Part shown: positions 6,402 through 28,396 of the stretch, one piece after another
How positions within the stretch are numbered: the first letter of the stretch is position 1
Layout of the letters: the number at the start of each line of letters is the position of its first letter
Assembly (NCBI GenBank): GCA_900319105.1
Contig: ONND01000004.1
Location: 1 to 64,000, forward strand
DNA length: 64,000 bases
Direction: 5' to 3'
DNA from: an uncultured Bacteroidales bacterium
GTDB taxonomy: Bacteria > Bacteroidota > Bacteroidia > Bacteroidales > Paludibacteraceae
The notes under the pieces: model-generated
What the model was told of the DNA's origin: nothing
The model's database searches: none
The model's input: only the letters and a program-made list of their open reading frames with translations
Program-made: the position numbers and the translations under genes

Positions 6402-6472
6402 TTGCTCAACCAGGACTCGAACCCAGACAGACAGAACCAGAATCTGTAGTGCTACCATTACACCATTGAGCA
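6402..6472 (-). tRNA. tRNA-Gln (anticodon CUG)
   Basis: On the minus strand a cloverleaf can be drawn. The acceptor stem is TGCTCAA (pairing with TTGAGCA), the D-arm is GTGTAATGGTAGCAC, and the anticodon stem is ACAGA/TCTGT with loop TTCTGGT. This gives anticodon CTG and reads CAG. The T-arm contains GGTTCGAGTCC. The discriminator base is A, and CCA is not encoded. It has its own promoter at 6530-6560. The neighbouring integrase lies on the 3' side. Confidence 0.93.
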
Positions 6473-10000: not shown

Positions 10001-13000
10001 CCAAATCTCACCGCTCGCCTTATGCTGGCTGTTGTTACGCACACCGATCATGATGGACTCCACTTCTTCAAGGGTCGGGTTACCGAGCACGGTGATCTTA
10101 TTCATCGGCTTGTCGTGTGCATCGTCGTACGTGACGTATGGGATGGTGTTGCTCACACCCTTGTTACCGGCTCTCTTGGCCTTGTTACGCGCTGTCTTGG
10201 CGTCCGTGAACACGCTCAGCGGGAAGTCGAACATGTTATCTTCCGGCCATACGCGCATTCGATCCTGCTCGTTGTCATTATTATACATGCCGGGAGCCGT
10301 CAGTTTAAGCGGTATCTCGTATTCGTAGTAGTTGTTGCGCAAGTCGGAACCCAAGCGGATGAAGCAGGTCAGATCGTCGTCCCGCAAGTTCGGATCTGCA
10401 TCGGTCAATTGCTCGGCATGGACGAACATCTGCAGGTTCTTGTATTGGCGCATGTCGTACGTGGTGTTCTTATACATCGCACGGGCATCGTGCGGCGCGA
10501 GATTATTCACACGGAGTACCATGGCTTGTTCGTTCTGGGCGATGAGTTGCGCTTGACCGGGGTCGGTCTGACGGCTTACACCCGGAGGCAGCACGTAGTT
10601 AATGGGCGTACGTGTACTGTTCTCCTCGATATTCACGGTCTGCACATCAATCACACCCGTCTCGGTCTCCGGCGTACCGATCGGCGCGAGGTCGCGGGTG
10701 TACTGACGCCATTCGCCGCGCACGAGGTCCATCGTAGCAAAACGCAGATAGGTCTCATGCTGGAAGCCCGTCAGGTACATACGCATGAAACGGATCGATT
10801 TCCAGTTACGTATGGTACCGATACGCTTCATCGTTGCGCTATCCCCGCGCAAAGGTATCTTGAACTGATACCATGTTACATCGACCGTCTCGCCGTTACG
10901 CAGCGTCACTTTGCGGATCTTCTTCTCCGCGATATGCTGCTTACCCACCTCCATCATATGAGGCGCGAGGATGATCTTATACTCGTAGTATTTCTCGTAC
11001 TCGTTGAGGGTGTTATCCTGGTTGATATCCTCCACATCCGGAATAGTGGTGGCGGCGGTTCCGTATCGTTCGGTCTGCTGCTCGGTAGCAGGAGAGTTAC
11101 CTTGCGTACCGTTGTAGTGCTTGTAACGCTCGAGGATAGGTACCTCCATATCATCGAAGTCAGTTCCGCGGTAGAAATGGAAGTTATCGCCGGCAGGGTC
11201 ATTCAGCGGCGAGAAGAGATCCCGCGACCAGCGGCTGATGACGTCCGGATTAACTTTGCCGCGCAGGGTCTCCACATAAGTCTTGTACGCCGGCCATGTT
11301 TTCTCCTGGTCATCATTCAATCCATCCAAACCGAGATCCTGTCTCTCTCTCGAACCGGTCTCGTTACTGAAGGCATTGACCGTACTGGTCGTCTTTGGTA
11401 CGCGTCCCCAGAAGGTCGATTCGACGCGGCCTTCGTCGGCGTCCGAAACGGGCATCCCGTTCTCAAACGATTTCTTGCCGTCCCGTAAGATATCTTCGCT
11501 TACATCACCGAGGTTGATGTATAACTCGCCATTATAATCGGTCGGGTGGTCGGGGTTGGTCAGAGCGGGATCCATGAGCCAGAACTGGATGTACTCGATA
11601 TTGGCTTTCTCGAAATCGGTATTATCCAATTTACGCATCATACCACCCCAACGCTTTGCCGGGTTCGTCAGTTTACCATCCGGCGCAATCTCATCGGCGG
11701 AGATGTTATACTGTCCGCGCTCCTCGGGATAGTACGCGAGGTTGAGGACGGGTAACTTGGTATCGACGTTGCTGGCTTCCTGACGATTCGGGTATATCTC
11801 GTCCTGATAGACGATACGCGTACGATGGTCGCTCATCGCCGCCAGATCATTACGGATATGATCCGGCGTGTTGGTCTGCGGGTAACCGAAGATAGGATCG
11901 ACGGTGTACCAAGCCAAGTGCGCACGGCTGCGGTTATAAGCCGCTGTGTCGGTTGTGAAATTGATTCCCTCTTCATCGATAATACGGCGTGGCGTGGATG
12001 CCAGGAACCAGTAGTTCGGGAAATGGATGTCGATATTGGTTGTCGTCGTCTCGAAATCATCGATATACGCCGTTCCCTTGCGCCCCACATCTCGGGTGTG
12101 ACCGGGGATGAGGTGTGCGAACTCCGCGTTGATAGAGAAAGTGGAGGGGGCTGTCGCGGTTATCCAGGGGATCTTGTCAATCGCATTCGTGAGCCACTGG
12201 AACTCGGTCTTCCAGCTGGCGTTCAGACCCCAGATGGTGTTAGCAAGCGGTTCGTAACCCATATTAACTTTCGTGGTCAACGGACGTTCGCGTAAGTGCA
12301 TGATCGTTCCGCCGACAACGAGGTCCTTGTTAAACTCATATTCGAGATGCGCGCCAAAGAGTGACTTACGCTGCATGGAGAACGTGCTCTGGTTCTCCAA
12401 CTTGACGTCGATATTCGTACCCGACTCGATGATGGAGGTGTTGAGAATAGTGACCGTTCCCATCGTATAATCGACTGTATAATCGACGTTCTCGATAAGG
12501 GTGGCACCTCCGGCAGTAACCGTCACACTTCCGCGGGGCACGTTCATCGCTCCCAAACGGATCTCGCTGCTGTTCGTGCCCTTGTATTTACCGACGAGGC
12601 GGAACTTGTTCTTCTCGCTGATCTCCTGAGCTGAGACGAGGGTGGAGTCGTACAACTCGGGGAAGCAGTATTTCTTGGCGAGCGGCGAATCTTTACCGCC
12701 TAATTTGCCGGCGAGGAAGTCGCCGAACGGCTCCAGTACAGGGAAGATGATCTTACCTGTCGAAGACTGGATAGTGATACCGTCGAGGAAGTCGAATCGT
12801 CCATCCGGGCTGGCGTTATGTTTCTGGTCCAAGCGGTCCAGGTTCAGTACGCGGATGAGTTGTTTGCCGCTGATGTCACCTTCGTGGAGGTATTGCATGT
12901 CGGTTCCGATGGAGTCGTTGCGGTACGTGACGTACAATTCGAAACGGTCGGAATTGATGCTGGTAGCGCCGAGGGAGTAGATATTCTTCATCATCAGATC

Positions 13001-15576: not shown

Positions 15577-16614
15577 ATGACAGAAATCTCCAAATACGGT
15601 GAGTTTGGACTCATCAAACATCTTACGAAGGACCTCAAAACGGTTCAGCCTTCGACCATGAAATCCGTCGGAGACGATTGTGCTGTGATGGATTTCGGGA
15701 AAGTACCAAGTGACAAAGTACATACAAAGGACGTACGTGTGCTCATGACGACCGACATGCTCCTTGAAGGCATCCATTTCAACCTGGAGTACGTGCCCCT
15801 CAAGCACCTCGGTTATAAAGCCGCCGTGGTCAATTTCTCGGACATCTACGCTATGAACGGAACGCCGACCCAGATCACAGTCGGTTTGGGTATCAGCAAG
15901 CGTTTCTCGGTGGAGGATATAGAGGAACTCTATTCCGGTATTCGCCTGGCGTGCGAGCGCTACAACGTCGATCTCGTCGGTGGAGATACCTGCGCTTCCA
16001 TGACCGGACTCACGATCTCCATCACCTGCCTCGGAACGGCGTCAGCCAAGGATATCGTCTATCGTAACGGAGCCAAACTGAACGATCTCATCTGCGTCTC
16101 CGGCAATCTCGGAACAGCCTATATGGGACTCCAACTCCTCGAACGCGAGCGATTAGCCGGAGCGGAGCAGCCTGATTTTACAGGCAAAGAATACCTCTTG
16201 GAGCGCCAACTCAAACCCGAAGCGCGCCGTGACATCCTCGAAGCCCTGCGCAAAGCGGGAGTCAAACCAACGGCGATGATGGATGTCTCCGACGGACTCT
16301 CATCCGAACTGATGCATATCTGTTCGCAGTCCAACGTCGGTTGCTGCATCTACGAGGATAAACTGCCAATCGACTACGAGGCTGCGGCTTTAGCCGAGGA
16401 GATGAATCTCAATATCGTTACGTGCGCCCTCAACGGCGGAGAAGACTATGAGCTGCTCTTCACCTGTTCGCTCGACGACTACGAAAAACTGATTCCTATC
16501 GAGGATCTCTATATCATCGGGCATATTACCAAACCCGAATACGGTTGCAACCTCATCGGTCGCAACGGAGAAGAATTAACCCTTAAAGCACAAGGCTGGA
16601 ATGCATTCGATTAA
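15577..16614 (+). CDS. thiL: Thiamine-monophosphate kinase
   Basis: 345 aa from ATG 15577. The longer frame from 15526 starts upstream of the -7 box and adds 17 unrelated residues. Family motifs: GEFGLIKHL, VGDDCAVMDF, the metal/ATP-binding TTDMLLEGIHF, NFSDIYAMNGTP, LVGGDTCAS and MMDVSDGLSSEL. It phosphorylates thiamine phosphate to thiamine diphosphate in the cytoplasm, ATP-dependent. It is the first gene of the plus-strand operon and its end overlaps kdsC by 14 bases. Its link with envelope genes is positional rather than metabolic. Confidence 0.93.
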   Translation: MTEISKYGEFGLIKHLTKDLKTVQPSTMKSVGDDCAVMDFGKVPSDKVHTKDVRVLMTTDMLLEGIHFNLEYVPLKHLGYKAAVVNFSDIYAMNGTPTQITVGLGISKRFSVEDIEELYSGIRLACERYNVDLVGGDTCASMTGLTISITCLGTASAKDIVYRNGAKLNDLICVSGNLGTAYMGLQLLERERLAGAEQPDFTGKEYLLERQLKPEARRDILEALRKAGVKPTAMMDVSDGLSSELMHICSQSNVGCCIYEDKLPIDYEAAALAEEMNLNIVTCALNGGEDYELLFTCSLDDYEKLIPIEDLYIIGHITKPEYGCNLIGRNGEELTLKAQGWNAFD

Positions 16615-17098
16615 ACTTTTTCTCACGGATGTGGATGGTTGCCTCACGGACGGCAGCATGTATTACTCCGCCGAAGGCGAAGTGATGAAGCGTTTCTGTG
16701 TCTATGACGGAATGGGCATGGTCTGCCTCCAGCAGGCCGGCATCCCTTGCGGCATCCTGACCTCCGAACAATCGCCTGTGGTAAAAGCCCGCGCGGAGAA
16801 ACTCAAACTGCAGTTCCTCTACCTCGGCGTCGGAAGTAAGGTCAACCCGAATTGCCTGACCAAACTCCAGGCTGCTTCGGAGATATGCGCCCAACTCGGG
16901 ATCACGCTCGATGAGGTCTGCTATGTAGGCGATGACATCAACGATATAGACCTGCTCTCGGCGGTTGGTTTCCCTTGCTGCCCGCCCAATGCCCGACCTG
17001 AGGTGCTTGCGATACCGAATATCCATGTGCTAAAGACCCCCGGCGGACAAGGTGCCATCCGTGAGATAGCAGACAATATCTTAAAAGAATACGGATGA
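16601..17098 (+). CDS. kdsC: KdsC-type HAD phosphatase (KDO 8-phosphate phosphatase)
   Basis: 165 aa. HAD motif I FLTDVDGCLTDG (residues 7-18), motif II around ILTSEQSP, and motif IV GDDINDIDLL near 110-119 with the two metal-binding acids. This is the small C0-type, capless form typical of KdsC tetramers. It removes phosphate from 3-deoxy-manno-octulosonate 8-phosphate. A kdsD gene in the same operon supports a KDO/LPS role. kdsA and kdsB are not in the window. Overlaps thiL by 14 bases and the next gene by 4. Confidence 0.88.
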   Translation: MHSIKLFLTDVDGCLTDGSMYYSAEGEVMKRFCVYDGMGMVCLQQAGIPCGILTSEQSPVVKARAEKLKLQFLYLGVGSKVNPNCLTKLQAASEICAQLGITLDEVCYVGDDINDIDLLSAVGFPCCPPNARPEVLAIPNIHVLKTPGGQGAIREIADNILKEYG

Positions 17099-17781
17099 AA
17101 AATATTGCAATCATATTAGCCGGAGGAACCGGAAGCAGAGTGGGCGGAGAGACGCCGAAGCAGTTCTTGCCGTTACCCGACGGACGAACGATACTTGAGC
17201 ACTCGGTCGATGCCTTTGAACAGGCGGTTCCGATCCATGAGATCGTCATTGTGATGCACCCCGACTGGATACCGGAGGCGGAAGCTATCGTGGCACGCAA
17301 CTCGTGGCGCAAAGTGAAGCAGATCATCTCCGGAGGCAGCGAACGATGGGAGAGCTCTTGGAACGCCATCTCATTATTCCTCAAGGACGACAAGAAAGAT
17401 CCGGACACGTTCTACTGGTTCCACGATGCGGCACGGCCTTTCGTCTCGCAGGATATCCTGCGTCGCGTAGCAGAGGCACTCAAGACGCACCTGGCGGTAA
17501 CGGTGGCGGTCCCGATTACGGATACCTTGTACCACGTACATAATGCGAAAGTGGAGCATATCCCGAATCGCAAGGAGTACATGCGCGCCCAAACGCCGCA
17601 GGCTTTCCATTATTTGGTTATCGGACCTGCATACATGCGCGCAATAGAAAAAGGAAAGATCGAGGCGACGGACGATGTGGGCATTTTGATGAAGTATAAC
17701 CCCGAAGTGGAAGTGTTCATCGTCGAAGGCGACGAGACCAACAAGAAAATAACGTACAAGGAAGACCTGGCAAACCGATGA
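17095..17781 (+). CDS. IspD/TarI-family cytidylyltransferase
   Basis: 228 aa. The CTP-binding loop is LAGGTGSRVGGETPKQF (residues 8-24). FHDAARPFVS and AQTPQAFHY follow, and TNKKITYKEDL closes it. These features are shared by IspD (CDP-methylerythritol, MEP isoprenoid pathway) and TarI (CDP-ribitol for phosphoribitol polymers). The segment before AQTPQ reads EHIPNRKEYMR, which by memory resembles TarI (IPNR) more than typical IspD. With a CDP-polyol phosphotransferase downstream, a CDP-ribitol role is possible, but no TarJ-like reductase is present. It overlaps both neighbours by four bases. Confidence 0.8.
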   Translation: MKNIAIILAGGTGSRVGGETPKQFLPLPDGRTILEHSVDAFEQAVPIHEIVIVMHPDWIPEAEAIVARNSWRKVKQIISGGSERWESSWNAISLFLKDDKKDPDTFYWFHDAARPFVSQDILRRVAEALKTHLAVTVAVPITDTLYHVHNAKVEHIPNRKEYMRAQTPQAFHYLVIGPAYMRAIEKGKIEATDDVGILMKYNPEVEVFIVEGDETNKKITYKEDLANR

Positions 17782-18947
17782 GCGAGAAGATGAAAATAGT
17801 GATTTTAGGTACGTCGTGGCCTTACCGCGGCGGACTTGCGACGTTCAACGAACGGCTCGCACGCCAGTTTGTGGCGGAAGGACATGAGGTGGAAATATGG
17901 ACGTTCACTCTTCAATATCCCTCTTTCCTGTTCCCCGGCAAGACGCAATATACCGCCGAACCGGCTCCCGACGATCTGGTCATCCGGCGTGAACTCAATT
18001 CCTGCAACCCGTTCAACTGGTTGCGTGTGGGAAAGGCGATCCGTAAAGCGGCTCCCGACTTGCTCATTTGCTGTTACTGGATGTCTTTCTTTGCTCCTTC
18101 CTACGGACTCATCTCCCGCATGGCGCGCAAGAACGGAAAGACGAAATGTATTGCGCTTGTCCATAACATGATCCCGCATGAACCCACAATCCTCGACAAA
18201 CTCTTCGCGCCCTATTTCGTCAAATCCCAGGACGGCTTTGTTGCCCTCTCCGATAGTGTCGTAAAGGATATAGATAATATAGAGCGAAAAATCTCAAATC
18301 TCAAATGTCCAATCTCAAATAAACCAAAGGTATCTTCTCCTCATCCCATCTACGATCATTACGGCGAGCGGATGACGAAAGAGGAGGCGTGCCAAGCTCT
18401 GAACATCGATCCGGGAAAATCCTATATGCTTTTCTTCGGTCTCGTACGCGCGTACAAAGGACTGGATCTGCTGCTCGATGCGTTTGCGTTCATTAAAGAC
18501 CAACTGCCTGATTTGCAGTTGATTATTGCCGGGGAGTTCTATGAACACGAAGACAAATACCGCACGCAGATAGCGGCAAACGGTTTGACCGAACGGGTGA
18601 TCCTTCGTAATGAGTTTATCCCCGACGGCGACCTGCGCAAGTATTTCGGAGCGGCGGATCTGATTGTGCAGCCCTATAAGACCGCTACGCAAAGCGGCGT
18701 GACCCAAGTGGCTTTCCATTTCGAGAAACCGATGCTCGTCACCAACGTCGGCGGACTGGGGGAGATCGTCCATGACCATCAGATGGGCTATGCCTGCGAA
18801 CCGAACGCACAAGCGATAGCAACCGATATATTGGATTATTATACCCAGCATCGCCAAGCGGCTTATACCGCCTATCTACAGAAAGAGAAAACCAAATACG
18901 CATGGTCTAAGATGACCTGCGCATTTACCAAAATAATGAAACAATGA
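17778..18947 (+). CDS. Glycosyltransferase, family 4 type (GT-B)
   Basis: 389 aa. N-terminal Rossmann-like half with GTSWPYRGGLATFNERLA. C-terminal nucleotide-sugar half with MLFFGLVRAYKGLDLLLDAF, LQLIIAGEFYE and the donor-binding EKPMLVTNVGGLGEIV. Acts on the cytoplasmic face in polysaccharide or LPS assembly. Donor and acceptor unknown. A 7-base repeat array at 18290-18317 (AATCTCA units) encodes KISNLKCPISNK in the linker between the two halves and looks like an in-frame insertion. Overlaps both neighbours by four bases. Confidence 0.88.
   Translation: MSEKMKIVILGTSWPYRGGLATFNERLARQFVAEGHEVEIWTFTLQYPSFLFPGKTQYTAEPAPDDLVIRRELNSCNPFNWLRVGKAIRKAAPDLLICCYWMSFFAPSYGLISRMARKNGKTKCIALVHNMIPHEPTILDKLFAPYFVKSQDGFVALSDSVVKDIDNIERKISNLKCPISNKPKVSSPHPIYDHYGERMTKEEACQALNIDPGKSYMLFFGLVRAYKGLDLLLDAFAFIKDQLPDLQLIIAGEFYEHEDKYRTQIAANGLTERVILRNEFIPDGDLRKYFGAADLIVQPYKTATQSGVTQVAFHFEKPMLVTNVGGLGEIVHDHQMGYACEPNAQAIATDILDYYTQHRQAAYTAYLQKEKTKYAWSKMTCAFTKIMKQ
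18290..18317. repeat. Heptamer array in the GT4 gene
   Basis: AATCTCA, AATCTCA, AATGTCC, AATCTCA. Encodes ISNLKCPISN in the linker between the two GT-B halves. Confidence 0.75.
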
Positions 18948-19918
18948 TTGAAAAATCTGTCATTACTAAAGCAAAAGAATGCCTCAAACAAGAGGCAAAT
19001 GCTATCACGGCCCTGATTCCTCGGCTTGGAGAAGATTTTATCCGTGCGGTAGAACTGATTCAGGGATGTCAAGGCAAGGTTGTTGTAACCGGAGTCGGCA
19101 AGTCCGGACATATAGGCTCGAAGATAGCCGCTACACTGGCTTCAACCGGTACGCCGGCTTTCTTCCTCAACCCGCTTGATGCTTACCATGGCGACTTAGG
19201 TATGCTGGCCACGGGAGACGTACTGTTGGCGATCTCCTATTCCGGTGCCACGGAAGAGTTGTTGCGCTTCCTGCCGCTGATTCAGGACAAGCATATCCCG
19301 ATCATCGGCATGTCCGGCAATCCCTCTTCGTTACTCGCCAAGTACTCCGATGTGCACCTGAATATCTCCGTGGAGCGCGAAGCGGATCCGCTCAACCTGG
19401 TTCCGACCTCCTCCACGACGGTAACGCTCGCGCTCGGCGATGCACTCGCTTGCGCACTCATTGAGGCGGCACATTTCCAGCCGACGGACTTCGCTATGCT
19501 GCATCCCGGCGGTGACCTCGGACGCAAACTGTTAGCGAAAGTGGAAGACGTCATGTTCACGGACAACCTGCCCTTTATTTCGCCTGACGCTTCGATGAAC
19601 GAAGCGATAGAGATTGTGACGAAAGGTAAGTTAGGCGTCGGCATCGTGGTAGATCGCAATAAGCTTCTTGGTATCGTGACGGACGGAGATATACGTCGTG
19701 CGATGTTGCGCCTCGGGCAGGATTTCTTCAGTACACCGGTGACTGATATCATGGCACGCGAACCAAAGACCATCAATCAGAACGCGAAGATTGTAGATGC
19801 CGGTGAGGCGATGAACCACTATTCGATCCACTCCCTTATCGTGCTCGATAACAACAACCATGTTGTCGGCGTCATCGACTCCTTCTCCTGCCTCCCCGGC
19901 ACAAGGTTTTATCATTAA
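18944..19918 (+). CDS. kdsD: Arabinose-5-phosphate isomerase (KdsD/KpsF/GutQ type)
   Basis: 324 aa. SIS domain with VTGVGKSGHIGSKIAAT (about 48-64), TGTPAFFLNPLDAYHGDLGM and SYSGATEELL. Two CBS domains follow from about residue 210 (VEDVMFTDNLPFI; GIVTDGDIRRAML; VTDIMAREPKTI). It interconverts ribulose 5-phosphate and arabinose 5-phosphate, the entry to KDO. The last residues (SFSCLPGTRFYH after VVGVID) do not look like the usual end of the second CBS domain, where a DLLRAG-like helix is expected. The change falls exactly where base composition shifts to the AT-rich genes downstream. Confidence 0.92.
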   Translation: MIEKSVITKAKECLKQEANAITALIPRLGEDFIRAVELIQGCQGKVVVTGVGKSGHIGSKIAATLASTGTPAFFLNPLDAYHGDLGMLATGDVLLAISYSGATEELLRFLPLIQDKHIPIIGMSGNPSSLLAKYSDVHLNISVEREADPLNLVPTSSTTVTLALGDALACALIEAAHFQPTDFAMLHPGGDLGRKLLAKVEDVMFTDNLPFISPDASMNEAIEIVTKGKLGVGIVVDRNKLLGIVTDGDIRRAMLRLGQDFFSTPVTDIMAREPKTINQNAKIVDAGEAMNHYSIHSLIVLDNNNHVVGVIDSFSCLPGTRFYH

Positions 19919-19929: not shown

Positions 19930-21717
19930 ATGCAAGCAATTATTTTAGCGGCGGGAATGGGAAAGCGCCTTGGAGAGTTGACGCAAGGAAATACGAAATG
20001 TATGATTCGTGTTGGCAGCGAGACGCTGATAGAGCGCGTGCTACGGCAATTAGACGCGCTTCATTTGAGTCGTATAATTATCGTTATCGGTTACAAAGGC
20101 GCAGAGTTGCAAGAGTACTTGGCTAATGTATCCGTTCAGACACCTCTGGTGTTTGTTGAAAATCCCATCTACGACAAGACGAATAATATCTATTCCTTGT
20201 ATTTGGCAAAGGATTATATGCGTGAGCAAGATACCTTGCTGTTAGAGTCGGATATAATCATAGAAGATGCCGTATTGAGCAAGTTGGTGCATCATCCTTA
20301 TCCCGATTTGGCTTTGGTAGATAAATATGAGAGTTGGATGGACGGAACGGTAGTGACGATAGATGATGAAAACCGCATTCAGCGTTTTATCCCGAACAGC
20401 CAATTCCGCTATGAAGAGATACCAGAATATTACAAGACAGTGAATATCTATAAGTTCTCGCAGGCTTTTTCGGAGCATATGTATGTGCCGTTCTTGGAGG
20501 CGTATAGTTCGGCTTTGGGCAATAACGAATATTACGAGCAGGTGTTGCGTGTAATTACGATGTTGGATAACTCGCCGCTCCGTGCGCTGCCTTTGGAAGG
20601 TGAGCAATGGTACGAGATAGATGATATTCAGGATTTGGATATTGCAGAGTCTATCTTTACGGATAAGCAGTATGATTTGCTTTGTTCGCGTTATGGTGGT
20701 TACTGGCGGTATCCTCATATGTTGGATTTTTGCTATCTAGTGAATCCCTATTTCCCGAACCAACGTTTGAGAGATGAGTTAGCTGCCAGTTTCGACCGTT
20801 TGCTGACAGAATATCCGTCGGGTCAGAAAGTGAATAATCTGTTGGTAGCCAAAGATTTTGGCGTTAAGCAGGAATATATTTTAGTAGGTAATGGAGCCGC
20901 TGAATTGATCAAGGCATTAACGACACAGATGTTAGGCAAAGTCGGAATCGTTCGTCCGACTTTTGAGGAATACCCGAATCGGTTGATGGAGGAACAGGTA
21001 GTAGCGTACGTACCACAACGACCGGATTTTCGCTATACAGCGGATGATTTAATGGCGTATTTTGAAGACAAGCAGATATGGTCATTAGTGCTGATTAATC
21101 CTGATAATCCGACCGGCAATTATATTCCTTATGATGATTGTTTGCGTTTGGCGCAATGGTGTCAAGAGCGCGAGATAGTGTTGGTGATTGATGAGAGTTT
21201 CATTGATTTCTCGAGCGAGCATCCTACTTTCCTGAAGAACGATATATTGGCTCAAAACGACCATTTGGTAGTTGTGAAGAGTATATCCAAATCGTATGGT
21301 GTACCGGGGCTGCGTTTGGGTGTATTGGCAACTTCCAATCAAGGTCTGATGCTGAACTTACGTCGAGAGATGAGTATATGGAACATCAATTCTTTCGGAG
21401 AGTTTTTCTTGCAGATTATAGGCAAGTACGAGAAGGTATATGCTCAGGCTATGGATGCTTTCCGTGAGGAGCGTAGCCATTTTGTGAAGGCATTGGAAAG
21501 TGTATCTTATTTACGTGTTTTGCCCAGCGAGGCAAACTATGTTTTATGCGAAGTGAAGGAGCGTTATAGTCCTCGCGAATTGGCAGTCCGTTTACTGCGA
21601 GAGTACGGCATTTTGATCAAAGATTGCTCGCAGAAATGCAAAGGTAATTATATCCGTTTGGCTGTGCGTGATACGAAAGATAATAACCGATTGATAGAGG
21701 CTCTCAAGCAATTATGA
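19930..21717 (+). CDS. Nucleotidyltransferase fused to PLP-dependent aminotransferase/decarboxylase-fold enzyme
   Basis: 595 aa. Residues 1-240 form a nucleotidyltransferase with LAAGMGKRLGEL (6-17), NTKCM and VENPIYDKTNNIYSL (77-90), LLLESDII and a late EIDD, like LicC-type phosphocholine cytidylyltransferases. Residues 250-595 are a fold-type I PLP enzyme of the HisC/CobD group with NGAAELI (321-327), NPDNPTGN (390-397), DESF (421-424) and the PLP lysine in SISKSYG (Lys454). CobD-like members decarboxylate phosphothreonine or phosphoserine, so one polypeptide could make a phospho-amino-alcohol and activate it with CTP. That is inference. Histidinol-phosphate-like transamination is the alternative. 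AT-rich compared with kdsD upstream. Overlaps the next gene by four bases. Confidence 0.85.
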   Translation: MQAIILAAGMGKRLGELTQGNTKCMIRVGSETLIERVLRQLDALHLSRIIIVIGYKGAELQEYLANVSVQTPLVFVENPIYDKTNNIYSLYLAKDYMREQDTLLLESDIIIEDAVLSKLVHHPYPDLALVDKYESWMDGTVVTIDDENRIQRFIPNSQFRYEEIPEYYKTVNIYKFSQAFSEHMYVPFLEAYSSALGNNEYYEQVLRVITMLDNSPLRALPLEGEQWYEIDDIQDLDIAESIFTDKQYDLLCSRYGGYWRYPHMLDFCYLVNPYFPNQRLRDELAASFDRLLTEYPSGQKVNNLLVAKDFGVKQEYILVGNGAAELIKALTTQMLGKVGIVRPTFEEYPNRLMEEQVVAYVPQRPDFRYTADDLMAYFEDKQIWSLVLINPDNPTGNYIPYDDCLRLAQWCQEREIVLVIDESFIDFSSEHPTFLKNDILAQNDHLVVVKSISKSYGVPGLRLGVLATSNQGLMLNLRREMSIWNINSFGEFFLQIIGKYEKVYAQAMDAFREERSHFVKALESVSYLRVLPSEANYVLCEVKERYSPRELAVRLLREYGILIKDCSQKCKGNYIRLAVRDTKDNNRLIEALKQL

Positions 21718-22706
21718 AAACAGTTTGTATCTGTGGCGGAGGTGCATTAGGTTTGGTAGTCGCGAGTGTGTTGTCTCATACGCGCGAAGTAGCAGTACGT
21801 GTGCTAACGGCTCATCCGCAGCAATGGAGCAAATCAATCGAAGCTATTGATACTGCAGGAAAAATCTATCAAGGGGAATTAGAGAGAGTGTCTGATAGAG
21901 CAGTAGATGTTATTCCTCAGAGCGACATCGTTTTGCTTTGTCTGCCGGGATTTTTGATAGAGAAGAGTTTGAGGCAGATAGCGCCATTTGTTACGAATCA
22001 GGCGATAGGCAGTATCGTGAGCAGTACTGGATTTTTCTTTCAGGCTCATCGGATATTCGCCAGTTCGGTTTCGTTGTTTGGCTTTCAACGCGTACCTTAT
22101 ATAGCACGCGTACGCGAATACGGTCATAGTGCTGATTTGTTAGGATACAAACAGCAATTATATATGGCGACGGAGAATTTGCCAAGGGATTATGAGGCAA
22201 TGTGGGCGGAGTGGTTACAAACACCTATTGCTCATCTGTCGAATTATTTGGAGGCATCGCTAAGTAATAGTAATCCGTTACTTCATCCGGCTCGTTTGTA
22301 TGGAATGTGGCATGATTGGAAAGGAGAAACGTGTAATGACCAAACGCTTTTTTATGCCCAATGGGACGAATTGAGTTCGGAGGTTTATATTGCAATGGAT
22401 GAAGAGTTTCAGAAGTTATGCTGCAAGGTGGGTGTGAAAATACCAAGTGTGTTGGATTATTATGAAAGTACTGATGCGGTCTCTTTGACGCGTAAGTTAC
22501 GCTCTATTGTAGCTTTTCAAACGATCAAAGCGCCGATGAAACAGACCGAGAAAGGCTTTGTGCCGGATTTTGAGAGTCGGTACTTTACGGAAGATTTTCC
22601 ATATGGATTGCAGATCGTAAAAGATTTGGCGCAAACACATCAAATAGAGACACCTGTAATAGATAGAGTGTTGTTGTGGGGGAATAAATTGATTAAAAGA
22701 TGTTAG
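21714..22706 (+). CDS. Opine/octopine dehydrogenase-like NAD(P)-dependent enzyme
   Basis: 330 aa. N-terminal Rossmann loop ICGGGALGLVVASVLS (residues 5-20), then VIPQSDIVLLCLPGF. A mid-protein NPLLHPARLYG (about 188-198) matches the Asn and catalytic His segment of octopine/nopaline dehydrogenases. The C-terminal helical domain begins near 225. Family members reductively condense an amino acid with an alpha-keto acid. The gene overlaps the fusion gene by four bases and the phosphotransferase gene by seven, so the three proteins probably serve one pathway. Opine-type groups such as N-carboxyethyl-lysine occur in some O-antigens, which makes a surface-glycan role plausible. No substrate is inferred from sequence. 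Confidence 0.7.
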   Translation: MKTVCICGGGALGLVVASVLSHTREVAVRVLTAHPQQWSKSIEAIDTAGKIYQGELERVSDRAVDVIPQSDIVLLCLPGFLIEKSLRQIAPFVTNQAIGSIVSSTGFFFQAHRIFASSVSLFGFQRVPYIARVREYGHSADLLGYKQQLYMATENLPRDYEAMWAEWLQTPIAHLSNYLEASLSNSNPLLHPARLYGMWHDWKGETCNDQTLFYAQWDELSSEVYIAMDEEFQKLCCKVGVKIPSVLDYYESTDAVSLTRKLRSIVAFQTIKAPMKQTEKGFVPDFESRYFTEDFPYGLQIVKDLAQTHQIETPVIDRVLLWGNKLIKRC

Positions 22707-24034
22707 ATAAGATACAAGAAAAAGTAAAACAATTTGTCGGTATAAACTTTGTGGATAGTTTGTACAAGGCAGTAACGTTCCGTGACTTTTTTATTGCAGC
22801 CTTTCCTTCTTGCTTGTTACGGAAAGTCCGCAAAGTGAGGCAGATACAGGAGCGAAAGATAAAAGAATTACAGCAACAAGACAAATGCCGCGTATTGTTC
22901 TTTTTGCAGACTCCATCTGTGTGGAAATATGATAGTCTATATAGGAAACTGGAAAGTTCTGAGTATTTTGAACCGCTCATTGTGGTGTCTCCCTATAATG
23001 TGCATCTTAATTATGATATGCAAGAGTGTTTCCGTGTGATGCATCAAACTGAAGACTTTGCCAGAGAGAGAGGGTACCAATATATCAGCGCATACAATTG
23101 GGAAAAACGCCAATGGAGAGATATAAAGAAAATGTGTAGTCCGGATGTGGTGTTTTTTACCAAACCGTATAAAGATACATTGCCGGCATACCACATTTAT
23201 CACTACACAGACGTGTTAACATTATATGTGCCGTACGGAATTAATTGTATGCATCTGTATCACAATAATTACGAGCTTCCTTTTCAATCATTGCTATGGA
23301 AGTTTCTGGTAGAGACTGAGTTTCAGAAGCATTATGCAGAGATTTATGAGAAGAGCCATGGGGATAATGTGGAGATAGTGGGTGCTCTGGCGGAAGAGAA
23401 ACTGATGCAAGAGGAGTACGAGGCGAAAGATGTGTGGAAGCCGCAAGAAAAGAAAAAGAAACGTGTTATCTGGGCTCCGCATCACACGGTGGATTATTTG
23501 TTTAACTTCTCTAACTTCCTCAATTATTGCGAGGATATGCTGCGGCTGGCAGAGGAGTACAAAGACGAGGTGCAATTTGCGTTTAAACCTCACCCCGTGC
23601 TGAAGTTCAAACTGATCAACTTGTGGGGATTAGAGAAAACGGAGGCGTATTATCACCAGTGGGAAGAAATGGAAAACGGACAGATAGAGCAAGGCGATTA
23701 TATTGATTTGTTCAAGACCTCGGATGCGATGATACATGATTGTGCTTCGTTTACGGTGGAGTATTTGTATGCGCAGAAACCGGTGCTTTTCCAGATTCGG
23801 GACGAGAAAGTGAAAGAGGAGTTCAATACATTCGGGCAGATGTGTCTGGATAAACACTATCTGGCTTATTATATAGAAGAGACGGAGAAGTTTATTCGCG
23901 AGGTAGTGATCGAAGGGAAGGACCCGAAGAAAGCCGAACGGGAACAGTTCTACAAACAATACCTCTATCCGAAAGACGGAGTGATGCCTTCGGATAAGAT
24001 ATTTGAGATTTTAAAAACAGCAATAGGAAAATAA
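22700..24034 (+). CDS. CDP-glycerol glycerophosphotransferase-family (TagF/TagB-like) protein
   Basis: 444 aa. After a basic, helical N-terminus (1-65) comes a GT-B-type region with FFLQTPSVWKYDSLY, then VIWAPHHTV (about 255), FAFKPHP (about 294) and SDAMIHDCASFTVEYLYAQ (about 346-364). These His and Asp motifs define the CDP-glycerol phosphotransferase family that moves a polyol phosphate from a CDP carrier to a glycan or polymer. No membrane span; likely peripheral on the inner membrane. A neighbouring cytidylyltransferase fusion could supply an unusual CDP donor. Low G+C, with a ten-base gap before yfhO. Confidence 0.82.
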   Translation: MLDKIQEKVKQFVGINFVDSLYKAVTFRDFFIAAFPSCLLRKVRKVRQIQERKIKELQQQDKCRVLFFLQTPSVWKYDSLYRKLESSEYFEPLIVVSPYNVHLNYDMQECFRVMHQTEDFARERGYQYISAYNWEKRQWRDIKKMCSPDVVFFTKPYKDTLPAYHIYHYTDVLTLYVPYGINCMHLYHNNYELPFQSLLWKFLVETEFQKHYAEIYEKSHGDNVEIVGALAEEKLMQEEYEAKDVWKPQEKKKKRVIWAPHHTVDYLFNFSNFLNYCEDMLRLAEEYKDEVQFAFKPHPVLKFKLINLWGLEKTEAYYHQWEEMENGQIEQGDYIDLFKTSDAMIHDCASFTVEYLYAQKPVLFQIRDEKVKEEFNTFGQMCLDKHYLAYYIEETEKFIREVVIEGKDPKKAEREQFYKQYLYPKDGVMPSDKIFEILKTAIGK

Positions 24035-24043: not shown

Positions 24044-26467
24044 ATGAATAAAATCAATTGGAAAGCCATTTGGCAACAGAGTTGGCCGCATTTGGTGGCG
24101 GTGAGTATTTTTGTTGTGCTGGTGATGGTGTATTTTGCCCCTCAGGTGTTTGAGGGTAAGCAGTTACCTCAGGGCGATATGATCAGTTCGTACGGTATGG
24201 GTCATGACGCAAAGGTGTACCACGACCAAACCGGTGAATGGAGTCATTGGTCGAACGCGATGTTCGGCGGCATGCCGTATAATGCTACGTCCGGTGTCGA
24301 TTCGAAGAGTGTTTTTCGTCCTGTTGCCCAATGGGTGAAATGCGGTTTTAACGGTTTGACCAGCGGTGTGCTATGGCTGTTGTTGATCGGATTTTATATT
24401 TTTATGTTGGCTGTGGGGTGTAGCCCATGGTTGAGCATCGTAGGAGCTATTGCTTTTGCGTTTGGATCCTATAACCTGATTATTATTGATGCCGGACATG
24501 TAACCAAGGCGTGGGTTTTAGCAACCCTTCCGGCTGTCATAGGTGGATGTTTGCTATGCTATCGCAAGAAATATATTGCAGGATTTATAGTAACGGTTTT
24601 GGCAACAGGTCTTAACGTGTATTGGAATCATCAACAAATTTCGTATTATACACTGCTGATGCTGATTCCATTAGCGATAAGTTACTTTGTTTACTCGTTA
24701 CGTGAGAAAGAGCAGAAACATTTCTGGGTAGCATCATGTATATTACTGATAGCAGCCGTTATGGCAGTGGTGCCTGCTGCTGATAAGTTAGTGACGACAT
24801 GGGATTATTCGAAGGAGACGATGCGTGGAGGTGCGGTATTGCACGGAGCAGCTGACAGTGAGGCGGGTAAGTCAGGATTGAACAGGGACTATGCGTTCAT
24901 GTGGAGTTATGGCAAGGCAGAGACGATGACGCTGCTGATTCCGAATTTCTATGGAGGCAGCAGCCATTACGCATTGGGCGAAGACAGCGAGACCTACAAG
25001 ACCATTAAGAAATACGCCGGCACATCGCAGGCAAAGCAGTTTGTGAAGGCCGTTCCGACCTATTGGGGCGACCAGCCGTTCACTTCGGGACCTGTTTATG
25101 CGGGTGCGATCATCTGTTTCCTCTTTATCCTTGGTTTGATGGTGGTGCCGCAGAAAGAGCGTTGGTGGCTGTTGGCAGCTGCGGTAATCGGTATTTTGTT
25201 GTCATGGGGACGTAATCTTCCGGGGCTTAATAACTGGTTGTTTGACCATCTGCCTTTATACAATAAGTTCCGTACGCCGAGTATGGCACTTGTGATGACG
25301 ACTACCGCAATGGCGATGATGGGTATGTTGGCGCTCAAAGAAGTACTGGAGCGCAAAGTGACGCTCAAGCAAGTGGGTATAGCCGGAGGCGTCACAGTGG
25401 GAGTATGCTTGCTGTTCATACTTTTCCCCAGTTTGGCAGGCACGTTCTCTGCCCAGGTAGATGCCCAAATGCCCGAATGGCTCACATCCGCTATTATCGC
25501 AGACCGTCAGCATATGCTAACTTCTGATGCATGGAGATCTATAGTATTTGTCTTATTAGCAGCAGTGGGAATAGTTGTTTACCTACGGGCAGAAAAGATG
25601 AAAGGCATAGTGATTGTGGTGATTCTCGGTGCGCTTATTATAGGAGATCTATGGGCTGTGGATAAGCATTATCTGAACGATAGCCATTTTGTGGCGAAGA
25701 AGCAGCAACTAATCACACCGACTGCTGCTGATAAACAGATATTGGCGGATAAGGATCCGGACTATCGAGTGCTGAATCTGGCGTCGAATACGTTTAATGA
25801 GTCTCGTACCAGTTATTTCCACAAGACGATAGGCGGTTACAGCCCGGCAAAGTTGCGCCGCTATCAAGATATCATTGATTATTACCTCTCCGGCAAGATA
25901 AATATGAACGTGCTGAATATGTTGAACACTCGTTATGTAATAACGCAGCAGGGTGTACAACGCAATTTTGAGGCTTTTGGCAATGCGTGGTTTGTGAAAT
26001 CCGTACAATGGGTTAATACACCGAATGAGGAGATAGAGGCTATCGGTGATGCTGATTTGCAGGAGGTTGCGTTTATCGATACTTGTTGGCAAAGCAAAGT
26101 GCAAGGTGCATTGACAATGACTCAGCCGGCGAAGATAGAACTGACGAAATATGCTAATCCGGGCAACTTGTTCTATGCGAGCGAGAGTGCAGAGGAGGGT
26201 CTGGCGGTATTCTCGGAGGTTTATTACAAGACTTGGAAAGCATTCGTAGATGGAAAAGAAGTGCCTGTCTTGCGCGCGAACTATATCTTACGCGCGATAG
26301 AGGTTCCGGCAGGCAAACATACCATAGAGTTTAGATGTCAGGATGAGCTGTTGGAGAAAACGCAGGTAGTGTCTGTTGTTGCGTCTTGTGTTATTGTATT
26401 GGTAGTATTGCTGTTGCTGGTATATTGTATCAAACGAAAGAAAGATGAATCTGCTGACAATCAATAG
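24044..26467 (+). CDS. YfhO-family multi-pass membrane protein (GT-C-like)
   Basis: 807 aa with about a dozen membrane segments from residue 17 to 525, a large extracytoplasmic domain (about 530-770, including YFHKTIGGYSPAKLRRYQDI and NMLNTRYVIT) and a last membrane helix near 780-798. This is the layout of YfhO proteins, GT-C-fold glycosyltransferases thought to use a lipid-linked sugar donor on the outer face of the membrane. The loop after the first helix contains QGDMISSYGMGHDA. In this operon it probably adds a sugar to the polysaccharide after export. Its end overlaps the next gene by 23 bases. Confidence 0.87.
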   Translation: MNKINWKAIWQQSWPHLVAVSIFVVLVMVYFAPQVFEGKQLPQGDMISSYGMGHDAKVYHDQTGEWSHWSNAMFGGMPYNATSGVDSKSVFRPVAQWVKCGFNGLTSGVLWLLLIGFYIFMLAVGCSPWLSIVGAIAFAFGSYNLIIIDAGHVTKAWVLATLPAVIGGCLLCYRKKYIAGFIVTVLATGLNVYWNHQQISYYTLLMLIPLAISYFVYSLREKEQKHFWVASCILLIAAVMAVVPAADKLVTTWDYSKETMRGGAVLHGAADSEAGKSGLNRDYAFMWSYGKAETMTLLIPNFYGGSSHYALGEDSETYKTIKKYAGTSQAKQFVKAVPTYWGDQPFTSGPVYAGAIICFLFILGLMVVPQKERWWLLAAAVIGILLSWGRNLPGLNNWLFDHLPLYNKFRTPSMALVMTTTAMAMMGMLALKEVLERKVTLKQVGIAGGVTVGVCLLFILFPSLAGTFSAQVDAQMPEWLTSAIIADRQHMLTSDAWRSIVFVLLAAVGIVVYLRAEKMKGIVIVVILGALIIGDLWAVDKHYLNDSHFVAKKQQLITPTAADKQILADKDPDYRVLNLASNTFNESRTSYFHKTIGGYSPAKLRRYQDIIDYYLSGKINMNVLNMLNTRYVITQQGVQRNFEAFGNAWFVKSVQWVNTPNEEIEAIGDADLQEVAFIDTCWQSKVQGALTMTQPAKIELTKYANPGNLFYASESAEEGLAVFSEVYYKTWKAFVDGKEVPVLRANYILRAIEVPAGKHTIEFRCQDELLEKTQVVSVVASCVIVLVVLLLLVYCIKRKKDESADNQ

Positions 26468-27662
26468 TTTTAATTGCTCTGCGCAAGCTATGGGTGGCGT
26501 TAACCAAACTACGGTGACGCTAACTACTTATTTCACGGAGCAACTGGGGATACATTGTTATTTAGGATTCTTTGAGAATCTTCCATCTATTTATGAGCCG
26601 CTTCCTCTATTTGAGGGACGCATATTGCTTTCGCGCTATTTTGACGAGCAGGGCTTCGCAGATTTTCTTAGATCCAACAAGATAGATATCGTACAAGTCA
26701 ATTTCTTGAAGAAAGAGAATTTGAAAACCCTTCCTCAGATTTATAAAATAGCTCATCAATGTGGCGCAAAGGTTATTTATGCGTTTCATATGTGTCCCGG
26801 TTTCCAGATTCATGCATATGGATCTTGGCTACGTGCTCAATACGGATTGAAATATAATGATAACGCATTTGCTGAGACGAAGAAATGGCTTTTGACAGCG
26901 ACAAGTTGGCTATGGAGAGGGATAGCACGTCGTGCTTTGCAGTCCAAATACAGGATACCATATGATAGTTGCGACAAAGTGGTAGTGTTGTCGAAATATT
27001 ATTTCCCGACGTATTTGTATTATGCCGGTTTGGAAAAGAGTGAAAAGATGAGTGCTATCGGCAATGCCTTGCGTTTTAATGAGTTTGCGACGGATCAAGA
27101 TATCCAGCAAAAGCACAAAACAGTACTCGTTGTAGCTCGTTTTGACGAAGATACCAAACGTATATCCATTATGTTAAAAGCATGGCGTGAAATAGAACAG
27201 GATGCGCGTCTGAGCGAATGGAAATTGCAGTTAGTGGGTGACGGACGAGATATGGCTTTTTACAAGTATTTGGTTCGTCAATGGCATCTTCAGCGGGTCG
27301 AGTTCACAGGTCGTCAACAGCCGAAAGAATATTACCGGAATGCCTCTATGTTTCTGATGACAAGTTGCGCAGAAGGGTGGCCAATGGTATTGATGGAAGC
27401 AGTGCAGATGGGTGTGCCGGTAGTGGCAATGGATTCGTTCGGATCGTTGCATGATATTATCGAAGATGGTGTGAACGGAAGTATTGTGCCTAATAATGAT
27501 ATGAGTGCTTTCGTGGCGGCGATGAAACAGATGATGCAGAATGAGGAATTGCGGCATAAGATGTCTCGTCATGCGGTAGAGCGAAGCAAGTCTTTCGTTA
27601 TTGATGAAGTGGTACGATGCTGGAAACAAGTGTTTAGTGAATTAATACAGGAGAAACAATGA
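26445..27662 (+). CDS. Glycosyltransferase, family 4 type
   Basis: 405 aa. N-terminal half starts LLTINSFNCSAQAMGGVNQTT. C-terminal half has VLVVARFDEDTKRISIMLKAW, LVGDGRDM, VEFTGRQQPKEYYRNASMFL and the donor-binding signature EGWPMVLMEAVQMGVPVVA, where the two Glu bracket the nucleotide. Cytoplasmic retaining transferase of unknown specificity. Low G+C compared with thiL-kdsD. It begins inside the yfhO coding end and overlaps the GT2 start by four bases. Confidence 0.88.
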   Translation: MNLLTINSFNCSAQAMGGVNQTTVTLTTYFTEQLGIHCYLGFFENLPSIYEPLPLFEGRILLSRYFDEQGFADFLRSNKIDIVQVNFLKKENLKTLPQIYKIAHQCGAKVIYAFHMCPGFQIHAYGSWLRAQYGLKYNDNAFAETKKWLLTATSWLWRGIARRALQSKYRIPYDSCDKVVVLSKYYFPTYLYYAGLEKSEKMSAIGNALRFNEFATDQDIQQKHKTVLVVARFDEDTKRISIMLKAWREIEQDARLSEWKLQLVGDGRDMAFYKYLVRQWHLQRVEFTGRQQPKEYYRNASMFLMTSCAEGWPMVLMEAVQMGVPVVAMDSFGSLHDIIEDGVNGSIVPNNDMSAFVAAMKQMMQNEELRHKMSRHAVERSKSFVIDEVVRCWKQVFSELIQEKQ

Positions 27663-28396
27663 AAGTTTCTATTATCACCATTACATATAACGCGGCTAAA
27701 TGGCTGGAACGCACGATGCTGAGTGTACTTGCGCAGCGTTGCAAGGACTATGAATATATCATCGTTGATGGCGGTTCGAAAGATGGTACTATTGATATCG
27801 TAAAACGTCTGGAACCGCTGTTTGAGGGACGATTGTCATGGAAATCAGAGCCGGACAAGGGACTCTATGACGCGATGAATAAAGGTATTGCGCGTGCGAA
27901 AGGCGATTTCCTCTGGTTTGTCAATGCCGGCGACGAGATCTATGCACCAGAGACATTGGCACATGTGGTAGCTGCGGCTGCGGAGGAGACGGATATTGTC
28001 TATGGCAAGGCGTGTATCGTCAATGCGGAAGGCGTCAAAGTGAGCGAGCATCATAAGGTGACACCGCCGGACTTACAACGCAAGCATTTCTTGAACGGTC
28101 TGGTGGTGAGTCATCAGGCGATATTAGTGCGCCGTTCTATAGCTGCGAATTATGATACGCACTATCGCATCTGTGCGGACTACGATTGGTGTGTGCGTGC
28201 GGTCACTCGATCGCGGAAGAATGTGTATCTGGATGAATATGTGTGCAAGTTCCTGACGGAAGGTGTGAGCAAAAAACAGAGAAAACGCGCCTGGAAGGAA
28301 CGTTTTCATATCATGTGTACTCATTTCGGAGTAGCGCGTACGTTGTGGGCACATTTCTTGATTGCCCTCCAATATCCGTTCTCGATCAAGTACTAA
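27659..28396 (+). CDS. Glycosyltransferase, family 2 type (GT-A)
   Basis: 245 aa. It opens with SIITITYNAAKWLERTMLSV, then YIIVDGGSKDGTIDIV, GLYDAMNKGIARAKGDFLWFVNAGDE (the DxD-equivalent NAGD near 88-91) and HQAILVRR plus DYDWCVRA. This is the WcaA-like single-domain GT2 pattern of polysaccharide loci. Last gene of the plus-strand operon. Its stop overlaps the stop of the convergent acyltransferase gene, and no terminator hairpin is visible between them. Confidence 0.9.
   Translation: MKVSIITITYNAAKWLERTMLSVLAQRCKDYEYIIVDGGSKDGTIDIVKRLEPLFEGRLSWKSEPDKGLYDAMNKGIARAKGDFLWFVNAGDEIYAPETLAHVVAAAAEETDIVYGKACIVNAEGVKVSEHHKVTPPDLQRKHFLNGLVVSHQAILVRRSIAANYDTHYRICADYDWCVRAVTRSRKNVYLDEYVCKFLTEGVSKKQRKRAWKERFHIMCTHFGVARTLWAHFLIALQYPFSIKY

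Follow-up and report, generated by a model that had tools for sequence, protein, structure and literature searches.

A nucleotidyltransferase–PLP enzyme fusion coupled to exchangeable reductases: a candidate pathway for nucleotide-activated opines in surface glycan decoration

In this study, we have explored three overlapping genes of an uncultured Bacteroidales bacterium (Paludibacteraceae), together with their relatives in other genomes. The genes lie at positions 19930-24034 of a 64,000-nucleotide stretch of contig ONND01000004.1, referred to here as the window. On balance, we favour the view that this trio makes and uses a nucleotide-activated opine for the decoration of a surface glycan, and the most likely product would be a cytidine diphosphate (CDP) donor, CDP-N-(carboxyalkyl)ethanolamine. 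Read from the sequences, the argument is carried by the gene families, by conserved active-site residues, by the coupling of the genes, by the exchange of two unrelated reductase families (octopine dehydrogenase, ODH, and ornithine cyclodeaminase, OCD) and by ODH-LicD fusion proteins. The first gene of the trio is itself a fusion of a nucleotidyltransferase with a pyridoxal phosphate (PLP) enzyme, and the features are as follows:

19930..20661, + strand: N-terminal nucleotidyltransferase half of the fusion, LicC/PntC-like (PF12804; nearest solved structures 6pd1 and 1jyk)
20689..21714, + strand: C-terminal PLP half, a predicted CobD/SMUL_1544-like phospho-amino-acid decarboxylase (PF00155; TIGR01140 scoring above TIGR01141; 6oux)
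21714..22706, + strand: ODH family reductase (PF02317; alignment with 3c7a)
22700..24034, + strand: TagF-like (PF04464) phosphotransferase with a GT-B-like model, putatively transferring a CDP-linked group to a glycan

The three co-directional open reading frames (ORFs; 19930-21717, 595 aa; 21714-22706, 330 aa; 22700-24034, 444 aa) overlap by 4 bases between genes 1 and 2 and by 7 bases between genes 2 and 3. The first-pass annotation had described three overlapping genes of these families, and this is confirmed by the ORFs and by matches to PF12804/PF00155, PF02317 and PF04464, the TagF label being the weakest of them.

The pathway that we propose would have four steps. The PLP half would decarboxylate O-phospho-L-serine (phosphothreonine being less likely) to phosphoethanolamine, which the nucleotidyltransferase half of the same polypeptide would join with cytidine triphosphate to give CDP-ethanolamine. 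ODH would then condense the amine with a 2-oxo acid, pyruvate being the plainest guess, and reduce the imine to CDP-N-(1-carboxyalkyl)ethanolamine; where related loci have a reductase of the unrelated OCD family instead, that enzyme would play the same part, perhaps with the other stereochemistry. Finally, the TagF-like enzyme, whose place is taken by LicD in most ODH relatives, would transfer the phospho-group to a surface glycan. We infer all substrates of this scheme, the order of its second and third steps, its stereochemistry and the acceptor glycan; the amino-alcohol could be ethanolamine, aminopropanol or serinol, and the identity of the 2-oxo acid is likewise part of the prediction. 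Decarboxylation, CDP activation, N-alkylation and transfer would be the most economical order, given that one polypeptide combines the nucleotidyltransferase with the PLP enzyme and that, in two loci, another combines ODH with LicD, and N-alkylation may well come after CDP activation. A wider proposal, which we advance tentatively and with less than even confidence, is that of a two-reductase pathway on a CDP carrier, widespread in Bacteroidales and Clostridia, whose reductase switches within a genus and which would yield an exchangeable, amino-acid-like surface epitope.

Two samples underlie the counts given here. One comprises 80 loci, the best of at least 404 confirmed relatives in a one-genome-per-species collection, with frequencies that describe the nearest relatives only and with genes called mechanically as ORFs of at least 80 aa. 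The other is a survey of 393 genomes of the same order, the genome of the window (G000) included. The fusion is a single uninterrupted frame (structure model with a mean predicted local distance difference test score, pLDDT, of 93.7) and is present at whole or near-whole length, with 56-94% identity, in 80 other loci, and it is therefore no chance or assembly joint. It is widespread, not rare. The hosts of the 80 loci are chiefly metagenome-assembled genomes whose labels are Bacteroidales or Clostridia, isolated records bear the labels Treponemataceae and Akkermansia, and strain-named carriers are Bacteroides cellulosilyticus DSM 14838 (L122, with an OCD partner), Bacteroides sp. 224, Prevotella sp. 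P5-50, Butyrivibrio sp. AE3009 and Oceanirhabdus sp. W0125-5. In the order survey, it was found at full length in 12 genomes (own included) and as two ORFs in one (G266); in G371 there is just a partial copy (residues 1-126) at the end of a contig. Remoter full-length matches (34-47%) come from records of a plasmid collection (Fusobacterium, Gloeothece, Pseudonocardia, Erwinia, Rahnella and Priestia); in Bradyrhizobium and Mesorhizobium loti, each half has a gene of its own. Among 50,697 annotated phage records, 5 match the fusion and none does so over more than 80% of its length. Separately, four contigs of the IMG/VR viral collection (L145-L148), whose viral origin is putative, carry full-length fusions at 43-50% identity, adjoined by TagF in L145 and by LicD in L147.

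The PLP half matches PF00155 (Aminotran_1_2, class I/II) at residues 306-592 with 111.3 bits (cut-off 19.7), and its PLP lysine, Lys454 (codon 21289-21291), is kept in 93 of 94 fusions. Its top PDB sequence match is 6oux (159 bits), which the library title gives as SMUL_1544, a decarboxylase; HisC 8bj1 (117.7 bits) and CobD 1lc5 (115.6 bits) match more weakly, and the HisC equivalog TIGR01141 scores 147 bits, short of its cut-off of 276.55. In structural fits to the model, CobD lies at 2.4-2.5 Å, the Porphyromonas gingivalis phosphothreonine decarboxylase 3fkd at 2.6-2.9 Å and 6oux at 2.8 Å (chain B) or 3.5 Å (chain A), and the HisCs 3cq5, 8bj1 and 1fg3 at 3.1-3.2, 3.7-3.8 and 4.7 Å, respectively. 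We also aligned the fusions with four HisCs, an annotated Sulfurospirillum serine-O-phosphate decarboxylase (L161) and relatives. Ser423, Trp484 and Arg580 are common to the fusions and the L161 decarboxylase, whereas the four HisCs have Ala, Tyr and Gly there, and a W-N-x-N motif is present as in CobD/SMUL_1544-type decarboxylases. In the tree from this alignment, which has several long branches, the four HisCs and two HisC-like rows form one side of a branch (SH-aLRT, the Shimodaira-Hasegawa-like approximate likelihood ratio test, 99), with a CobD-looking row (L043) joining between the HisC side and the remainder. No HisC was found at E<=1e-60 in the genome of the window or in nine others of its genus (ten searched), which suggests that the genus lacks the usual histidine-synthesis route. 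On these residues, this tree and the lack of a HisC-grade match in ten genomes, a HisC function was rejected, and the earlier reading, in which this half works as CobD-type decarboxylases do, survives this check. The comparison of its model with CobD and HisC came out less evenly, as CobD beats three HisCs and is equalled by one structure that its depositors named HisC (3ftb). To judge from sequence, the PLP half is closer to phosphoserine/phosphothreonine decarboxylases than to HisC and appears to be a CobD/SMUL_1544-type decarboxylase in the broad sense; phosphoserine decarboxylation would be the best reading, short of proof.

The nucleotidyltransferase half matches PF12804 (NTP_transf_3) at residues 3-122 with 48.0 bits (gathering cut-off 27), and its nearest solved structures are PntC-AEPT (6pd1) and LicC (1jyk). 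Three acidic residues, Glu106 (codon 20245-20247), Asp108 and Glu203 (codon 20536-20538), are invariant in 94 of 94 fusions. In PntC, Glu104 and Glu196 sit near the primary amine of the substrate, and their LicC counterparts are Asp105 and Asp192, according to the accessible part of PMC6697681. Glu106 of the fusion aligns with PntC Glu104; in HMMER it also meets LicC Asp105 (one column off in MAFFT); Glu203 aligns with LicC Asp192, and PntC Glu196 stands opposite Tyr202, one residue away, in both programs. An acidic amine site in this half is therefore likely, and a specifically PntC-like one would be unproven.

The second gene matches PF02317 (Octopine_DH) at 124.3 bits (gathering cut-off 30), and its best solved relative is the scallop octopine dehydrogenase 3c7a (E 6.9e-31). 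His191 and Asp294 of the window ODH align with His212 and Asp329 of 3c7a, a His/Asp pair which we take to be catalytic; among the members taken, His191 is conserved in 41/41, Asp294 in 40/41, and Arg126, Asp285 and Arg289 each in 41/41. In the OCD partners, Lys66, Arg105 and Asp228, which presumably have functional roles, are conserved in at least 20 of 21. This conservation suggests that the ODH and OCD partners are both working enzymes.

The reductases are closely tied to the fusion. The gene directly 3' of it in the 80 loci is ODH in 35, OCD in 17, LicD in 6 and another gene in 13, with a contig end in 5 and a gene on the opposite strand in 4 of the remaining loci; OCD lies directly 5' in 2, and ODH or OCD adjoins the fusion in 54. 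At the position directly downstream (+1), reductases make up 52 of 75 genes, against 6 of 1031 elsewhere in the loci (Fisher P 6e-64), and the fusion and the reductase overlap by 4 bases in 24 of the 52 cases. An earlier ODH profile had drifted into LicD and into a further part of the L131 protein, and an IspD profile onto LicD; with clean profiles (single-pass, hand-checked seeds) the +1 counts are the same as before and the reductases elsewhere number 4 of 1031. Pfam agrees for 36/36 ODH (window included) and 19/19 OCD, the Pfam checks of other neighbours having been made on a hand-chosen set. In the order survey, six of the 393 genomes, own included, have an ODH of the window type (E<1e-60), and all six are among the 13 that hold a whole or split fusion (P 3e-10); the ODH directly adjoins the fusion in four of them and lies on another contig in two; six genomes with remoter ODH-like matches only have no fusion. 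The first-pass expectation of an octopine-type reductase thus holds for the 35 loci with ODH downstream, the slot being shared with the unrelated OCD family in 17 others (and 2 upstream).

The two families also replace one another repeatedly. We mapped the two labels onto a tree of 93 fusions, of which 59 have ODH or OCD next to them. At least 15 label changes are needed, or at least 13 if the tree is reduced to branches with SH-aLRT >=95; such a count would also take in recombination of the fusion gene itself. This is a quick tree with four long rows. It leaves out the split fusion of G266 and also L052 (G286), which nearly duplicates L135, and nine rows lacking a downstream neighbour that could be used are entered as NA. 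When the labels were shuffled, the scatter of OCD was as low in 138 of 500 shuffles, and is thus like that of shuffles, and that of ODH in 5 of 500. L099 (ODH) and L114 (OCD) are sisters with a support of 100, and both kinds occur within one genus, ODH in the window and OCD in G383, beside shared neighbours. As ODH and OCD repeatedly take the same place, two unrelated families in one slot most likely share the same chemistry. Tauropine dehydrogenases of the OCD family have been described, in a family that also holds alanine dehydrogenases and cyclodeaminases (PMC4113996 and PMC3840593, as far as their accessible parts go); for this reason, what the two families have in common here is probably the reductive N-carboxyalkylation of the amine. 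Taurine is a close analogue of phosphoethanolamine, differing in the acid group. Opposite stereochemistry of ODH and OCD would explain why both are kept.

The transferase step is less fixed. Gene 3 matches PF04464 (Glyphos_transf) at 30.5 bits (gathering cut-off 22.1), with no NCBIfam match and no solved relative found by sequence; its model (mean pLDDT 84.0) matches mostly UDP-N-acetylglucosamine 2-epimerases in the PDB, and also TarL (8va1), a capsule multienzyme (8a0m) and TagF (3l7k). Within four genes of the fusion, the 36 ODH loci (window included) have LicD in 22, TagF in 7 and neither in 7 (20, 8 and 8 with the earlier drifted profiles), so LicD or TagF is near in 29 of 36. In the window itself no LicD lies within four genes. 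At the same distance, 8 of 19 OCD loci have LicD and one has a CDP-alcohol phosphatidyltransferase, whereas 10 have no such transferase; LicD is also near the fusion in 11 of 26 loci without a reductase. The transferase is thus exchangeable, with TagF as one option among others, and we rejected the trio as a fixed unit. The co-occurrence that the first-pass annotation proposed to count holds for the fusion and its reductase, and TagF is not a constant part of it. In 2 of 80 loci (L131 and L141), ODH is fused to LicD, a family that transfers phospho-groups from CDP donors to glycans, and these proteins tie the reductase to phosphotransfer. Several further proteins deserve mention here. In L112 (4990-7155), directly 3' of the fusion, an O-antigen ligase (Wzy_C) domain and LicD share one protein. 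The C-terminal third of the ODH-LicD protein of L131 (11838-14603) has no Pfam match, and stand-alone proteins in L095 (16166-17260), L127 (16674-17705) and L137 (17035-18060), which match the drifted profile containing this part, may be its relatives; those of L095 and L137 do not match the clean ODH profile.

Several observations weigh against the pathway proposed above. The CobD equivalog TIGR01140 gives the PLP half 191.1 bits and does not reach its cut-off of 290.55. As noted, 3ftb fits the model as CobD does (2.6-2.7 Å); its sequence carries a W-N-I-N motif. The clade of the PLP half also contains a Bradyrhizobium enzyme that adjoins phosphoenolpyruvate (PEP) mutase, besides unassigned stand-alone enzymes, and because of that Bradyrhizobium enzyme membership of the clade does not fix the reaction. 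One full-length fusion (L054, 8658-10475, LicD adjoining) carries Ser where the others have the PLP lysine and may act through its nucleotidyltransferase half alone, as its sequence would suggest; a Sinorhizobium fredii NGR234 plasmid relative also lacks this lysine. The second amine-binding Glu of PntC meets a Glu of the fusion only through a shift of one residue. TagF is the weakest and least certain label of the trio, and a transferase is near only 9 of 19 OCD loci, though some contigs end nearby. Finally, in 26 of the 80 loci the fusion has no recognised reductase as its immediate neighbour, upstream or downstream, and 17 of these have a readable same-strand downstream neighbour. The fusion therefore also works without a reductase, and the product of such loci may be plain phosphoethanolamine.

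Other readings of the same genes have to be weighed. One concerns the PLP half, which would be a transaminase turning dihydroxyacetone phosphate into serinol phosphate, the donor then being CDP-serinol or an N-alkylated form of it. The fold family includes both activities, HisC 8bj1 scores above CobD 1lc5, and 3ftb fits as closely as it does. In the capsule pathway of Campylobacter jejuni, the PLP enzymes are Cj1436 and Cj1437, the latter making serinol phosphate from dihydroxyacetone phosphate. Use of both ethanolamine phosphate and (S)-serinol phosphate for this capsule, with Cj1435-Cj1437 required, is described in the accessible part of PMC12096443. However, the top sequence match is SMUL_1544, CobD, 6oux chain B and 3fkd fit better than the HisCs 3cq5, 8bj1 and 1fg3, and, in the alignment with four HisCs, L161 and relatives, the residues of the HisCs are absent from the PLP half; we thus consider a transaminase unlikely. 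Quite improbable, in our view, is a phosphonate pathway, with the fusion both producing and activating 2-aminoethylphosphonate or phosphonoalanine in the manner of PntC-AEPT. This protein is the nearest nucleotidyltransferase structure, its Glu104 aligns with Glu106, and it is the first Foldseek match of the whole fusion, with a differing domain arrangement (root-mean-square deviation 22 Å). In addition, a Bradyrhizobium relative adjoins aepX, and a PEP-mutase-like gene is present in 3 of 80 loci (L104, L123 and L126). Against this, the PLP half belongs to class I/II and not to class V, and the PEP-mutase-like proteins of L123 and L126 themselves match the fusion profile (107 and 106 bits), so that another nucleotidyltransferase may serve the PEP mutase there. 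There is also no PEP mutase match (0) in the genome of the window, which is 90.79% complete, and on this ground the phosphonate pathway was rejected as the leading explanation; the Bradyrhizobium relative by aepX and the three loci with a PEP-mutase-like gene keep it as a rival. Among the 13 fusion genomes, 10 have a match and 5 pass the cut-off; the match is strong only in G383 (183 bits, on another contig), and the other four are narrow (31-38 bits, covering at most the first 109 of 240 positions). The family also matches in 11 of 14 control genomes, and the narrow matches would represent a related enzyme such as ketopantoate hydroxymethyltransferase. As a separate observation, a Bradyrhizobium plasmid (L160, 4756-8740) carries a row of PEP mutase, a phosphocholine-type cytidylyltransferase, a CDP-alcohol phosphatidyltransferase and a CobD/HisC-like PLP enzyme, perhaps a phosphonolipid pathway.

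Two further alternatives were considered. In one, the reductases would not act on the amino-alcohol; their product would be a free opine or amino acid, joined to the glycan at another place, with the fusion simply supplying CDP-ethanolamine. LicD is indeed the next gene 3' of the fusion in 6 of the 80 loci, and 5 of these have no reductase on the opposite flank; among the genomes of the order survey, it adjoins the fusion in G101, G286 (by profile), G368, G293 and G194; the alanine dehydrogenases and cyclodeaminases of the OCD family would also suit this view. It is rather unlikely, however, in the face of the strict +1 position with its 4-base overlap in 24 of 52 cases, the 13 or more ODH/OCD exchanges in one slot and the two ODH-LicD fusions, which together indicate that the reductase, the fusion and LicD point to the same metabolite. 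A lipid fate, in which a CDP-alcohol phosphatidyltransferase (CDP-OH_P_transf) would use CDP-(N-carboxyalkyl)ethanolamine to build an unusual phospholipid head group, draws on the order fusion, ODH, CDP-OH_P_transf in G042, on a CDP-OH_P gene directly 5' of the fusion in L129 and on such genes in the distant Erwinia and Bradyrhizobium relatives. For the window we regard it as very improbable, as the third gene is TagF-like and stands among glycosyltransferases, and as LicD or TagF lies within four genes of the fusion in 48 of 81 loci (window included) against 1 of 81 for CDP-OH_P; for the loci with CDP-OH_P themselves, a lipid fate may apply.

Returning to the opine donor, the proposed system can be set beside several known ones. 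Known octopine and tauropine dehydrogenases, PF02317 and PF02423 proteins like the reductases here, act on free amino acids or taurine; here, in contrast, the genes belong to a glycan locus and the likely substrate would be ethanolamine phosphate, either as such or linked to CDP. The O14 O-antigen of Proteus mirabilis reportedly carries 2-[(R)-1-carboxyethylamino]ethyl phosphate, a finding ascribed to Perepelov et al. in 1999. This substituent is what our scheme would yield with pyruvate as the 2-oxo acid. The accessible part of a survey of Proteus O-antigens (PMC5560731) names no biosynthetic genes for carboxyethylamino-ethyl phosphate. PntC-AEPT of Treponema denticola (Tde1415, 6pd1/6pd2) likewise has a LicC-like cytidylyltransferase fused N-terminally to a PLP enzyme and serves surface-glycan decoration with a 2-aminoethyl group (accessible part of PMC6697681), but its PLP half is a class V aminotransferase for phosphonate, whereas that of the window is CobD-like, class I/II, in a genome with no PEP mutase found. 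The SMUL_1544/CobD decarboxylases share the fold, the PLP lysine, the W-N-x-N motif and the Ser423- and Arg580-type residues with the PLP half; unlike it, they serve cobamide synthesis (L161 stands among cbiB, cobU and cobT) and are not fused in a glycan locus. LicABCD, whose LicD is near 22 of 36 ODH loci, brings CDP-activated amino-alcohol phosphate to glycans (PMC8027243, accessible part), but with choline that is imported and phosphorylated, whereas here the amine would probably come from phosphoserine and then be reductively alkylated. The ethanolamine/serinol glucuronamide pathway of C. jejuni (Cj1435-Cj1438) also uses phospho-amino-alcohols for the capsule; there, an ATP-dependent domain amide-links the amine and the phosphate is removed, and the accessible part of PMC12096443 mentions neither a CDP donor nor an opine step. 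The system of the window would thus probably work like LicABCD or PntC decoration, a CDP-activated amino-alcohol phosphate decoration in which the amine comes from phosphoserine and is made into an opine. No description of a pathway for this substituent, or of this gene combination, was found in searches of the open-licence literature aimed at either. The first-pass remark that no system of such composition was known to its author agrees with this as regards the gene combination, though a cytidylyltransferase-PLP fusion as such is known, PntC-AEPT being one.

If the proposed pathway is correct, it would explain, down to the genes involved, how bacteria can synthesise opine-type phosphate groups for their surfaces. 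To our knowledge, such a substituent is on record only in O-antigen chemistry. Many Bacteroidales and Clostridia would gain a predicted charged surface group, recognisable by phages, antibodies and lectins. In addition, the repeated exchange of ODH and OCD in one slot is a natural experiment in non-homologous replacement, of which the stereochemistry is directly testable.

The trio lies in a run of glycan genes:

16601-17098, + strand: KdsC/KDN-9-phosphatase-like HAD protein, upstream in the same gene run
17095-17781, + strand: IspD/TarI-like cytidylyltransferase, upstream in the same gene run
17778-18947, + strand: glycosyltransferase GT4, upstream in the same gene run
18944-19918, + strand: KpsF-family isomerase, upstream in the same gene run
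24044-26467, + strand: large membrane-type protein downstream of the trio (YfhO match weak, under the cut-off)
26445-27662, + strand: glycosyltransferase GT4, downstream of the trio
27659-28396, + strand: glycosyltransferase GT2, downstream of the trio

The upstream run (16601..19918) is glycan context outside the trio, and counterparts of its HAD, IspD/TarI-like and GT4 genes adjoin the fusion of the same-genus genome G383.

A number of minor observations concern the reductase slot. L110 (151-10796) carries the fusion, OCD in two pieces downstream and ODH eight genes further. On a Gloeothece plasmid (L156, 7977-11439), a distant fusion is followed by an S-adenosylmethionine methyltransferase and LicD; the methyltransferase is possibly a third kind of amine-modifying partner, as if the slot were for any amine modifier. 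A protein with DUF1015 stands directly 3' of the fusion in two different phyla (L093, 7683-8939; L155, 9820-10869); it was considered as a possible phosphoserine supplier, and a search of the open-licence literature brought up nothing on DUF1015. On a Serratia plasmid (L165, 3708-7134), ODH directly follows a cysteine-synthase-family gene, with an IucA/IucC gene nearby. Staphyloferrin B sets use the OCD enzyme SbnB at that step, and ODH/OCD replacement may thus also occur in siderophore sets of this type. An ODH-like gene of Proteus mirabilis (L162, 7832-9999) was considered as a candidate for the O14 gene, but its ORF sizes resemble those of the siderophore-type set of L165. Elsewhere in the window, a phage-type integrase (5057-6274, - strand) adjoins a tRNA (6402-6472, - strand), resembling the edge of an integrated element, and a SprA-family protein of 2549 aa, of secretion or motility, is encoded at 7076-14725 on the - strand (PF14349, 700 bits).

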